From: Oscillatoriales cyanobacterium
GTDB taxonomy: Bacteria; Cyanobacteriota; Cyanobacteriia; CACIAM-69d
DNA: 64,000 bases
Assembly (NCBI GenBank): GCA_004292515.1
Contig: RDXB01000040.1
Location: 62,001-126,000, forward strand
Reading direction: 5' to 3'
The position numbers and the translations under genes are program-made. Shown here piece by piece: positions 35,384 through 62,724 of this stretch. The stretch's first letter is position 1. Each line of letters starts with the position of its first letter. The notes under the pieces were generated by a model. The model saw only the letters and a list, made by a program, of their open reading frames with translations. It was not told where the DNA came from and did not search any database.

Positions 35384-35530
35384 TAGGGTGTGTCATCAGA
35401 TTCGATTGATTGGGGTTGAAATGATTAATTTTCCTAGCCCAACCGCCCCAGACAAGGGGCTTAAGCCCCTTGCTCCTCACGATCAAGCAACGCAAGAATC
35501 GGGGTTTCAGGGATTTGATAACAGCCCCTA
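35384..35530 (-). mobile_element. Family A element (MITE), nearly complete, 147 bp
   Basis: The ends TAGGGTGTGTCATCA and TGATAACAGCCCCTA are imperfect inverted repeats beginning with TA. The perfect palindrome CAAGGGGCTTAAGCCCCTTG is at 35453-35472. Read on the minus strand, it aligns end to end with the copy at 42816. The right end supplies the TAG stop of the RNase II/R gene (35528-35530). No coding capacity. Confidence 0.88.
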
Positions 35531-43695: not shown

Positions 43696-43795
43696 AATGA
43701 CCCAAAACTAATAAAAACCACCTTAAAACAGCAAAACCGATGAAAATTTAGCAGAAAGATTCCATAGACCACACAAGACCACACAAACGCCATCT

Positions 43796-43931
43796 CAGAG
43801 GATGCCTGAAAAGCCCAAGTTGATACTCCGCATGCTCCATCGATCGACGCAAACAAGGGGCTTGAGCATCTTGCTGCCACGACTATTGGTGCTTGGCCCG
43901 GGCCGAAAGATACTTTTCAGACATCCCCTCA
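43796..43931. mobile_element. Family B element (MITE), uninterrupted, 136 bp
   Basis: The ends CAGAGGATGCCTGAAAAG and CTTTTCAGACATCCCCTCA are inverted repeats of about 18 bp. The interior aligns throughout with the two halves of the interrupted copy at 48967-49246 (67 + TA + 67). The palindrome is decayed (CAAGGGGCTTGAGCATCTTG), with TG at the centre where the other copies have TA. Confidence 0.88.
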
Positions 43932-43973: not shown

Positions 43974-44099
43974 GCTTGTAGGGTGGGCCATGCCCACCAA
44001 CCAACAGTACAGCAGCTTATAGGGCAGGCAATGCCCACCGACTAACAGCTTCATAGCATCTGCGATCTGATGTGCCAATCATTTGAGGCAAAGGCTTTA
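43974..44099 (+). repeat. Dispersed GTAGGGTGGGC repeat
   Basis: TTGTAGGGTGGGCCATGCCCACC, a second similar palindrome TAGGGCAGGCAATGCCCACC, then ACTAACAGCTTCATAGCATCTGCGATCTGATGTGCC. Related copies at 33016-33100 and 34650-34745 and a fragment near 44480 (ACCATTGGTACATCA). Confidence 0.75.
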
Positions 44100-48789: not shown

Positions 48790-48966
48790 GGGCATCTGGC
48801 GAGAGCAGGTCTGTGGTTTGTAGTCCTAGCTTAGAAAGGCGCTTTCTCAAAACAGCGGCTTCGACATGGTTTGAAATGCTTTGAAACGTCCCATTGCCAA
48901 ACGTTGCATAACGCTGTGGCAACCTGGGCGAGCCGAGGCTGGAAAATGTTTGGGCGGATACCGGTT

Positions 48967-49246
48967 TAGGGGATGTCTGAAAAGCCAGAATTGATACTCT
49001 GGATGCCCCATCGATCGACGGAAACAAGGGGCTTAGGGGGTGTCATCATTTTCCATAACTGAGTCTGAAATCGTCGATTTCCCACGCCTCAATGGTCGTA
49101 ACAGGGGGCTTAAGCCCCTTGCCCCCACGATCCGCTCACGGTGGAATCAGGGTTTCAGGGTAATTGATGACAGGCCCTAAGCCCCTTGCTGCCACGACTA
49201 TTGGTGCTTAGTTCGGGCCGAAAGACACTTTTCAGACATCCTCTTA
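48967..49246 (+). mobile_element. Family B element interrupted by a family A element
   Basis: The outer ends TAGGGGATGTCTGAAAAG (48967) and CTTTTCAGACATCCTCTTA (to 49246) are inverted repeats. The left half ends ..GAAACAAGGGGCT at 49033 and the right half resumes AGCCCCTTGCTGCC at 49180. Joined with one TA they restore the palindrome CAAGGGGCTTAAGCCCCTTG and the 136-bp length of the uninterrupted copy at 43796. The right end forms the TAA stop codon of the Rrf2 gene. Confidence 0.9.
49034..49179 (-). mobile_element. Family A element nested at the centre of a family B element, 146 bp
   Basis: The ends TAGGGGGTGTCATCA and TGATGACAGGCCCTA are inverted repeats starting and ending with TA. The core palindrome CAGGGGGCTTAAGCCCCTTG is at 49102-49121. 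One TA belongs to the target and the other is the duplicate: this is the clearest target-site evidence in the window. Confidence 0.92.
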
Positions 49247-55470: not shown

Positions 55471-58410
55471 CTAGGAACTCTGAAAATCCCACAACATCTG
55501 GGGCGATGGTATGGTCAACATCGCGGTAGCCTGCTCAATCGGGACGGCTCGTGAAAACAAATAGCCTTGCCCAAAACCACAACCCAAATTGCGCAGATAC
55601 TCGCTCTGGGCAGGGGTTTCAATGCCCTCAGCAATCACACTTAGCCCCAAGTCATTGGCTAAGTTAATGATTGCCCGGACGATCGCCGCATCGCGCTGGT
55701 TATCGAGCATGGCTTGAATAAACGATCGCTCGATTTTAATGGCATCGATCGGAAACTCACGCAGGTAGTTGAGGGAGCAATAGCCCGTCCCAAAATCATC
55801 AAGGCAGATTTTGATATGGCGCTCTCGTAACCGTTCTAAGCAGTTCCGGCTCGCCTTGGGATCAAGGGCCAACGACGTTTCGGTAATTTCTAGACGCAGT
55901 TCTCCCCCGTTGAGATCGTAGGCATCCATCAACACTTCAATCAAATCGGCCAATTCGGGCACCAGTTGCCGCGCGGATAAATTGATATTCAGCCACAGGG
56001 GAAACACCTCGGGCATACGGGCTTTCCAGTCGGCAATTTGTTTGCAAGCAGACTGGAGCACCCAATTCCCGATCGGTAAGATTGCCCCCCGATCCTCCGC
56101 CAATCCAATGAAGGCATTGGGCATCAGCAAACCTTGCTGGGGGTGCTGCCAGCGAATCAGGCTCTCAAAGCCCACAATGCTGTGGCTGTCGAGACAAACG
56201 ATCGGCTGGTAGTGCAAACGAAACTCGCGCCGTTCGATCGCCCAGCGCAAATCCGTCTCCAGTTGCAACAGTTGCTCCGTATCAGACTGCAATGCCGCGT
56301 CAAACACCACAAAGCTGCCGTCGCGCCGCTGCTTGGCGCGCTGGAGAGCCGTGTCAGCATCGCGCAAGATTCGGTAGGGCTGATCTGGGCGCGCATCTTG
56401 GTGCGACTCTGGGCGGCAGACAATGCCAACGCTGGCCTGCAAGAACACGTCCCGACCGTCCAACACGAAGGGGTCATGGAAGATCTCTTGGATTTGGGTG
56501 GCCTGGGTGGTGACCACGTCCAGTTGACCGTTGCTGGCGATTTCGTCTTCGGTGTTGTATTCCAGCAGCACCACGAATTCGTCCCCGCCAGTGCGGGCTA
56601 GGACTCGATCGGTCGGAATTGCCTTTTCCAGCCGTCCCGCCAACATCATCAACAGCCGATCGCCCATCCAATAACCCAAACTATTATTGATCCGCTTGAA
56701 ACCGTCAATGTCGATAAACAGCAGGGCAAACCGAAAGCTTGAGTCGCGGCGGCAGCGCGAAACCGCATCCACCAACCGCTCCAAAAACCAGGCCCGATTC
56801 CACAGACCCGTCAGCACATCATGGGAGGAGTTGTACTGGAGTTGGGCTTCTACCCACTTACGTGAGGTGATGTCTAGCAAGCAGCCTTCGTAATACAGCA
56901 GCCGGCCACTGCGGTCGCGCACGGCTTGGGCCCGCTGATCTACCCAAATGCGCTGACCATCCTGGCGGTAGACCTGGCATTCAAAATTGCAGGCTTCCCG
57001 GCTGTTTTCCAACAATTCCAAAAAGTGCACTTCATCGGAGGGGCGCACGTAGAGGCGGCGATCGGTCGCATTCAGGGCCTTGACGGCCGCCAAGGGTGAC
57101 TCGTAGCCCAAAATATTGGCAAAGGCTGGATTGGCGTGGAGATAGCGGCCATCGGGAGCCACCTGAAAAATGCCCTCGATCGCCCGCTCAAACAAGTTCC
57201 GGTAGCGCACCTCCGCCTGCTTGTGTTGCAACACAGGCCCAAGCTGGCCCGTCATTCGTGCGAGCTGGTTCAGGAGGGTTGGATCGCAGTCGCGGTGGTG
57301 CAAGCCAAATAACACCAACACTGCCAAGACCCGATCGCCCGACAAAATGGGTAACGCCACGCTCGATCGCAGCCCGACCCCTAGGGCCATCTGGGCGCGG
57401 CTACACCGCTCGATCGACTCCAGCTCATAGTTGCCCACCCATTCTGGGTATTGATTGTGCCAGGCGCGCCCCGGTTGGTCGCAGCCGAGGCCAAAGGTTA
57501 GTCCCAAACTAGCCTTGCGAAACAAATCAAGCCCCGCCACCGTGCAAAACCAAGCCGGACTGCATTCGAGGGCAGAGCCATCTAAGTTGCTCACCCAAGC
57601 TTCACCGGCCACCCAGTCCGTCGCCTCTCCCAGTACCTGAATCGCTCCTTCAAGGGCTACTTCAAAATCTTCAGCCGCACTGGTCACAGCCACAATTTGA
57701 TGCCATAGGTTGGCATAGTCAATCGATCGATAAGGCGCAATAACCGCAGGAGCGGGGAAATTTGCATCACGCTCGGAGGTGCCGTGCAGTGCCATAGCCA
57801 GAAATGGGACGGGAGTGGGGAGCAAACGGGAGGAAACCATCGACCATCCATGCCGTTGAGAATCCGTCCCGATCGCCGGTTTCGCCGACTCGCTACGTGA
57901 GGGATCCTCAAGAGGGGATGGACTGATCGGTAACAGCGTCCAATGGGCCTGGCCTGCGGTGGAATCGGGCATCTCGGACGTTAACGATCGGGCCAGTCGA
58001 TGGCGTAACGCCCAATCCCCCAAGAGTAAACCGGCTGCTAACCCAGCAAACCCCATCGGCCCCCAAAAAGCCAGGGGTTTAGGTGACGCAGGCAATGGGG
58101 GCAATGACGAGGTAGGTAGGCGATCGGCTCCCTGGCGATGGGGATGGATCGTCGCGGGGGCGGTCTCTGCGCTTGCCAAAATCGCCACCAAGACGATCCA
58201 TCCCCATCGTGAACATCCTGCATCGAGATCGGCGATCAATCCCAGGAGTGATAATCCCCTGGCATACCAATCCCCCGGCCGCCACCAAGTGTCGTACCGA
58301 ATGGAGTCCGTTTCGATCGCCGATCGCAATTGGACATGGTGTTTGTGCGCATGGGGGGTGAGTCCCTGATCCTGCCGCTCTGGTCTTGGCATATTGTCGG
58401 CTCCCATCAT
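55471..58410 (-). CDS. GAF-PAS-GGDEF-EAL signalling protein (cyclic di-GMP)
   Basis: A 979-residue protein. The N-terminal 130 residues include a weak hydrophobic segment (WGPMGFAGLAAGLLLGDWAL). A GAF domain follows (about 235-395), a PAS domain with PAC (about 405-525), GGDEF (about 530-700) with intact RTGGDEFVVLL and inhibitory-site text, and EAL (about 715-965) with GFESLIRWQHP in place of EALxR, NINLSARQL, ETSLA, CLDDFGTGYCSLNYL and AEGIETPAQ. Both synthesis and breakdown of cyclic di-GMP are possible. The first 30-90 residues may be wrongly assigned; a later ATG is a possible start. Convergent with cyAbrB. Confidence 0.92.
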   Translation of the reverse strand: MMGADNMPRPERQDQGLTPHAHKHHVQLRSAIETDSIRYDTWWRPGDWYARGLSLLGLIADLDAGCSRWGWIVLVAILASAETAPATIHPHRQGADRLPTSSLPPLPASPKPLAFWGPMGFAGLAAGLLLGDWALRHRLARSLTSEMPDSTAGQAHWTLLPISPSPLEDPSRSESAKPAIGTDSQRHGWSMVSSRLLPTPVPFLAMALHGTSERDANFPAPAVIAPYRSIDYANLWHQIVAVTSAAEDFEVALEGAIQVLGEATDWVAGEAWVSNLDGSALECSPAWFCTVAGLDLFRKASLGLTFGLGCDQPGRAWHNQYPEWVGNYELESIERCSRAQMALGVGLRSSVALPILSGDRVLAVLVLFGLHHRDCDPTLLNQLARMTGQLGPVLQHKQAEVRYRNLFERAIEGIFQVAPDGRYLHANPAFANILGYESPLAAVKALNATDRRLYVRPSDEVHFLELLENSREACNFECQVYRQDGQRIWVDQRAQAVRDRSGRLLYYEGCLLDITSRKWVEAQLQYNSSHDVLTGLWNRAWFLERLVDAVSRCRRDSSFRFALLFIDIDGFKRINNSLGYWMGDRLLMMLAGRLEKAIPTDRVLARTGGDEFVVLLEYNTEDEIASNGQLDVVTTQATQIQEIFHDPFVLDGRDVFLQASVGIVCRPESHQDARPDQPYRILRDADTALQRAKQRRDGSFVVFDAALQSDTEQLLQLETDLRWAIERREFRLHYQPIVCLDSHSIVGFESLIRWQHPQQGLLMPNAFIGLAEDRGAILPIGNWVLQSACKQIADWKARMPEVFPLWLNINLSARQLVPELADLIEVLMDAYDLNGGELRLEITETSLALDPKASRNCLERLRERHIKICLDDFGTGYCSLNYLREFPIDAIKIERSFIQAMLDNQRDAAIVRAIINLANDLGLSVIAEGIETPAQSEYLRNLGCGFGQGYLFSRAVPIEQATAMLTIPSPQMLWDFQSS

Positions 58411-58634
58411 GTACCTTTGTCCAAATCTGGCCCTGGCTAGAATGCAAAACGTGATCGCGGTCTTTCTTTCGTTTTATACCGAATCATTTCGTTGTAAATG
58501 TCCCCAACGATCGGTTATTGCAATTGCAGGTCATAGCTGGTCAAATTGGAGACCGCATTGTGGCCTAATTAAGGATGTCTGGGAAGCATCTTTTGGCACG
58601 AATCCAGCCCGAATCGTCGTGGCGGCAAGGGGTT

Positions 58635-58780
58635 TAGGGCGTGTCGTCAATTAGCCTAAAACCCTGATGCCACCGCGCCACGATCTTGGGGAGCAAGCTG
58701 CTCAAGCCCCTTACTACGACCATTGGGGCAAGGAAAATCAACCGTTTCAGCTTGCTCCTAGGAAATGACGACAGCCCCTA
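58635..58780 (+). mobile_element. Nested family A element, 146 bp
   Basis: The ends TAGGGCGTGTCGTCA and TGACGACAGCCCCTA are inverted repeats with TA at each tip. The same length as the nested copy at 49034-49179. The interior AAACCCTGATGCCACCG..ATCTTGGGGAGCAAG..AAGCCCCTTACTACGACCATTGGGGCAAGGAAAATCAACCG is family A. Confidence 0.88.
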
Positions 58781-58828
58781 GGCTCCCTTGCCTACGCCGA
58801 TCGCTGGGGCGTACAAAGTATCAATCTC

Positions 58829-58898
58829 GGCTTTTCAGACTTGGCTTTTCAGACTTGGCTTTTCAGTCTCGGCTTTTCAGACTTGGCTTTTCAGACAT
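58829..58898. repeat. 14-bp tandem repeat, five copies, inside a family B element
   Basis: GGCTTTTCAGACTT and variants repeated at 58829, 58843, 58857, 58871 and 58885. Other family B copies have a single unit, so this is an expansion of part of the terminal repeat. Confidence 0.9.
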
Positions 58899-58986
58899 TC
58901 TCTAAGAACGGAGTTGATGAGCAATCACCCTGTGGGGGCAGAGACGAGCACTGTGATGGCGCTTAACCAGTCGCGATCGCGGGTGA

Positions 58987-62704: not shown

Positions 62705-62724
62705 CAAGGGGCTTAAGCCCCTTG
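62705..62724. repeat. Family A element remnant (palindrome) after ftsH
   Basis: Perfect CAAGGGGCTTAAGCCCCTTG, 17 bases beyond the ftsH stop. The flanks CCTTGTGCCAATCGCCGCAGA and CCCCTAACCATCACGG fit family A. The ends are not recognisable. It may work as the terminator of ftsH. Confidence 0.8.

Follow-up and report, generated by a model that had tools for sequence, protein, structure and literature searches.

The window analysed here, a 64,000-nucleotide stretch at C66:62001-126000 of the 3.98-Mb genome of a Limnothrix cyanobacterium, contains two composite repeats in which a short element, A, interrupts a copy of another, B. The composite at 58570-58905 adjoins a 979-aa open reading frame on the minus strand (55471-58410) whose translation includes a GGDEF motif and, in ESLIRWQHP, an EAL-like stretch. 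Its outer, MITE-like B (58573-58902, minus strand) matches the B model as two halves, model positions 67-132 and 9-64, and is bounded by a TAA target duplication of the TNA type (58570-58572 and 58903-58905); the inner A is 142 bp long (58637-58778, minus strand) and is flanked by a TA duplication (58635-58636 and 58779-58780). One half of a decayed target palindrome lies on each side of A, the first with its TA at 58625-58636 (..GCAAGGGGTTTA, unstranded) and the other at 58779-58790 (TAGGCTCCCTTG), and the empty site reads ..GGCAAGGGGTT-TA-GGCTCCCTTGCC.., a decayed version of the core CAAGGGGCT-TA-AGCCCCTTG. The first composite has an outer B (48969-49243, plus strand) within a TTA duplication (48966-48968 and 49244-49246) and an inner A (49036-49177, plus strand) within a TA duplication (49034-49035 and 49178-49179); here the target core is intact, CAAGGGGCT/TA/AGCCCCTTG, and the empty site is CAAGGGGCTTAAGCCCCTTG. 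Read directly from the sequence, A sits in both composites at the central TA of B and in the same orientation relative to it, and the element strands assigned by profile models are +/+/+ in the 48966-49246 composite and -/-/- in the 58570-58905 composite, which bears out the first-pass annotation that, in the second interrupted B, A occupies the identical central TA and is oriented relative to B as it is in the copy at 48967. The composite size of about 280 bp given there does not hold for the 58570 copy, where B plus A spans 330 bp because the B end has expanded to five tandem 14-bp units (CTTGGCTTTTCAGA; 58821-58896, unstranded) derived from the B terminal repeat. These units look like slippage growth of a transposon end.

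Also present in the window are an uninterrupted B with a variant core (43798-43928, plus strand; TCA duplication 43795-43797 and 43929-43931), an A copy outside any core, which is a control for target choice (35385-35524, plus strand; C66:97385-97524), and a solo core palindrome with no A or B ends around it (62705-62724, unstranded; C66:124705). In congener G001, taken from matching A-end hits to be Limnothrix sp. CACIAM 69d, the corresponding intergenic region has the flanking genes but lacks both A and B; the composite, absent there, is a local insertion.

Our sample of the genome comprises 1.21 Mb in stretches together with targeted loci, and profiles built on the 1.21 Mb yield consensus sequences for A and B that differ in arms and ends and have ACAAGGGGCTTAAGCCCCTTGCTCCC-ACGA in common at both centres. 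A has the features of a MITE, being 142 bp long and non-coding with inverted ends (TAGGG..TGTCRTCA / TGAYGACA..CCCTA), and TA is found on both flanks of 45 of 76 bounded copies (65/104 in a larger set); B has them as well, with terminal inverted repeats and a 3-bp TNA duplication (TCA, TTA and TAA at the three window copies). The two families are MITE-like, non-autonomous transposons, with a target duplication of 2 bp (TA) for A and of 3 bp (TNA) for B. A first look at the whole genome gives 488 candidates for A and 460 for B, while the palindrome CAAGGGGCTTAAGCCCCTTG alone occurs in 272 exact copies, compared to 0 for a reversed-pattern control. The 1.21-Mb sample holds 181 near-exact cores, 84 in full A and 27 in full B; the remainder are solo, belong to fragments or lie in another repeat family, one with TAGTAGYGCGGC ends. 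Since this family too carries the core, the palindrome is common to three or more element families whose ends differ. Members of the TAGTAGYGCGGC-ended family, with the same central core, lie at C31:43674, C46:103829, C49:59602 and C66:35651, among others. An Rfam search gives no real match. In a sample across the cyanobacterial class, the exact core is found in 15 of 59 genomes, spread over 11 of 41 genera; full-length A matches occur only in three Limnothrix genomes, a single further genome from the same family gives part matches, and elsewhere the core alone is matched, which suggests that the palindrome is older than the expansion of A, as distinct from A's own origin. In one distant cyanobacterium (G013; L166:1453-1521), two cores lie 49 bp apart with similar spacers.

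Empty sites were rebuilt in silico by excising A and joining its two flanks, and we find that for many A copies the joined flanks make an intact core. A core-like site is occupied by 22 of the 45 A copies in the 1.21-Mb sample with TA on both sides, compared to a background of 240 core-like sites among 32,280 TA dinucleotides (0.74%), a 66-fold excess (p = 5e-35) that could partly reflect selection, with insertion within a MITE doing little harm. Junctions between a half-core and an A end number 206 genome-wide, compared to 0 for the reversed pattern, so the A-in-core arrangement is not due to chance; viral contigs contain no half-core/A junction. All 22 two-sided nests have A at the core centre. 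The hosts entered at this position are B, A itself and solo cores, the latter two having been overlooked in the earlier reading. Core enrichment, the occurrence of both orientations and the presence of separate A subfamilies together support repeated insertion at a preferred palindrome centre, one of the two explanations originally offered for the composites.

The orientation of A relative to its host was counted only where both host halves are intact (n = 22), and is the same in 10 nests and opposite in 12 (p = 0.83 versus 1:1), with 5 same and 4 opposite in B hosts, and 5 same and 8 opposite in A hosts. Random orientation of A follows from the symmetry of the target, and the matching orientation of the two window composites is chance, an outcome expected 1 time in 2. 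The first-pass annotation had named random orientation or differing positions of inner copies as evidence against spread of the composite as a unit; the orientations are indeed mixed, and the fixed position follows from the fixed target palindrome. That the A-in-B composite of about 280 bp is a single transposing unit, a third and larger mobile element moved via the B ends, would accord with the agreement in orientation of the two window composites, each with its own TNA duplication, and with their similar raw identities (76% for the inner copies, 75.9% to one decimal, and 78% for the outer), but composites in the opposite orientation are about equally common, the two inner A copies belong to different subfamilies in different clades and are closest to A copies outside B, and the outer B copies have solo B as nearest relatives in most cases. 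For the A at 49036, identity is 97% to C62:32274, a copy in a solo core and not in B, and 96% to C88:4595, whose host is a B in the opposite orientation. A tree built from 88 A copies places the A at 49036 together with non-B copies in a starred clade of 7 rows, which is nested in a starred clade of 30 rows that lacks the A at 58637. The five same-orientation A-in-B copies need five origins in this tree and a single clade is rejected (p-AU 0.00076), while grouping just the two window A copies is 35 log units worse than the free tree, a difference that is not significant (AU p = 0.11). Inner and outer distances are correlated among six composites (Mantel r = 0.80, p = 0.013), and not significantly so among the nine A-in-B nests (r = 0.38, p = 0.11; with age removed, r = 0.28, p = 0.08). 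With both orientations and separate clades represented, the composites do not share an ancestral A-in-B insertion. Orientation counts and tree thus lead us to reject the composite as a unit, a reading to which we give almost no credence; the A-in-B composite recurs because of a shared landing site, not a third element.

A cut-and-paste transposase that acts in trans is suggested by the TA duplication, the inverted ends and the lack of orientation bias within a symmetric site. We infer that this enzyme is TA-specific, probably of the DDE type, and that it would prefer a symmetric target of approximately GGGnY-TA-RnCCC, of which the palindrome would be a near-ideal version. Such a transposase would have brought A repeatedly onto the very centre of the palindrome, whether this lies in B, in A or alone, and each incoming A would supply a fresh intact palindrome, such that a filled site would be open again and nests could grow. 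An alternative that dispenses with target preference, in which any TA is used and insertions into the palindrome survive best because they lie in harmless intergenic repeats, is very improbable. It accommodates the finding that about half of the bounded A copies (23/45) are not in a core, yet other TA sites exist in A and B and nests are nonetheless found at the core centre, solo cores are also entered, and the core symmetry is weakly echoed at the 23 non-core sites by a symmetric G/C pattern around TA, with G as the fourth base before TA in 14 of 23 and C as the fourth after it in 13 of 23. Recognition of the cruciform or hairpin structure of the palindrome, and not of its sequence, is unlikely, albeit less so: the target is a perfect 20-bp inverted repeat and a few non-core sites are partly palindromic, e.g., C31:21835, with AGGGGCGTA and TACGCCCCT near the junction, but complementarity across the 23 non-core sites is barely above background (3.09 versus 2.57 of 10 positions, p = 0.053).

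Same-orientation A-in-A nests, once formed by such insertion, would contain adjacent direct repeats and may shrink to "A plus half-A", with opposite-orientation and A-in-B nests spared. One-sided structures, defined as a full A with a half A before or after it, broken at the core centre, are in the same orientation in 24 cases and opposite in 1, compared to 5 and 8 for two-sided A-in-A (Fisher p = 0.0002); one-sided cases in B hosts, which have no direct repeat with A, are evenly split (3 same, 3 opposite). In most one-sided cases, one or both outer flanks are not a core half. We infer from these counts that the pattern fits loss of a half via recombination or slippage between adjacent direct repeats. 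Origin of "A plus half-A" from half-element transposition or replication slippage, independently of direct-repeat recombination in nests, is a tentative possibility that we consider doubtful; several half units do lie in a row at C88:29059-29384, but a 24:1 bias that is not seen in B hosts is the outcome expected of direct-repeat recombination, although slippage between the same direct repeats could possibly look alike. The C88 array (in L238) comprises one full A and, after it, three consecutive right half-A units, as might result from the collapse of several same-orientation nests. The model as a whole, in which A is moved in trans repeatedly onto the palindrome centre in random orientation and same-orientation A-in-A nests collapse, is in our judgement very likely correct, and the positions, duplications, orientations, enrichment and phylogenetic independence of the insertions are shown by the data. 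There is perhaps an even chance that A is, beyond this, a self-supplying landing-pad transposon, which would carry its own target, restore it with each insertion and so have renewable safe sites, its nested growth limited by orientation-dependent collapse.

Transposase searches (PF13358 and PF13340 in the genome itself, PF01609 in the genus) and an end-pair scan find no autonomous element with A or B ends in the genus, and the IS630-type genes found are without A ends. TA duplication is compatible with both IS630 and IS5. A scan of 84,980 species for A ends reveals no coding element and, outside Limnothrix, one A-end/core-like stretch in a cyanobacterial MAG (L191), the other matches being apparently due to chance. 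This stretch (L191:6461-6520, in a MAG labelled Cyanobacteria bacterium MS008) consists of an A end adjoining a decayed core and is a possible relative of A. The helper of A may have been lost, may belong to another family, or may reside in unsampled strains. The sole Y1_Tnp (RAYT-like) gene of the genome (C82:11072-11647; L147) is flanked by GTAG..GTGGGCAATGCCCAC repeats and not by the core, and we therefore reject the core as the REP of a RAYT. GTAGGGTGGGC repeats similar to those at the Y1_Tnp gene occur in the window near 43979.

These findings amount to a clean natural example of single-base target choice inside repeats by a bacterial mini-transposon, in numbers large enough to measure, and warn that recurring composites of small repeats need not be units. 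The difference between two-sided nests, in which orientation is free, and one-sided remnants, with their 24:1 bias, doubles as an internal gauge of deletion between short direct repeats in a cyanobacterium, and a self-carried target would account for the high copy number of a non-coding element that leaves genes unbroken. In a limited literature search, we came across no MITE described as targeting a palindrome that it also carries, but partial parallels exist. Some cyanobacterial GTAG REPs lie within longer palindromes (PMC3733652), and like these our core is a short palindrome embedded in longer inverted-repeat DNA; unlike these, it is absent from the flanks of the one RAYT-like gene, where the GTGGGCAATGCCCAC repeats are found instead. 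Among cyanobacterial SDRs, SDR5 is described as entering HIP1 between bases 3 and 4 (PMC4390886, citing Elhai et al. 2008). As far as that account describes SDRs, they resemble the present system in that very short repeats enter other repeats at precise positions, and the core is like them in its similar size and its spread over many cyanobacteria. A is far longer than an SDR. Pneumococcal BOX, RUP and SPRITE repeats are inserted into one another (PMC3049150), likewise small repeats nested within small repeats, but in the portion of that study on which we draw no single fixed landing base is reported, whereas A lands at the core centre. IS1111 is found in a GTAG REP inside Coxiella QMITE2 (reviewed in PMC10969869), where, as here, another element has landed in a palindrome within a MITE; in Coxiella the incoming element is a coding insertion sequence, whereas here a MITE enters a MITE, in many copies and with TA duplication at the palindrome centre. 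Finally, insertion sequences that target REP palindromes are known (Tobes and Pareja 2006, PMC1525189), including ISPpu9 in REPs (PMC8450116), and A resembles them as a mobile element that repeatedly enters a short, abundant intergenic palindrome; unlike them, A is a 142-bp non-coding MITE that carries the target palindrome, and hence nests within itself.
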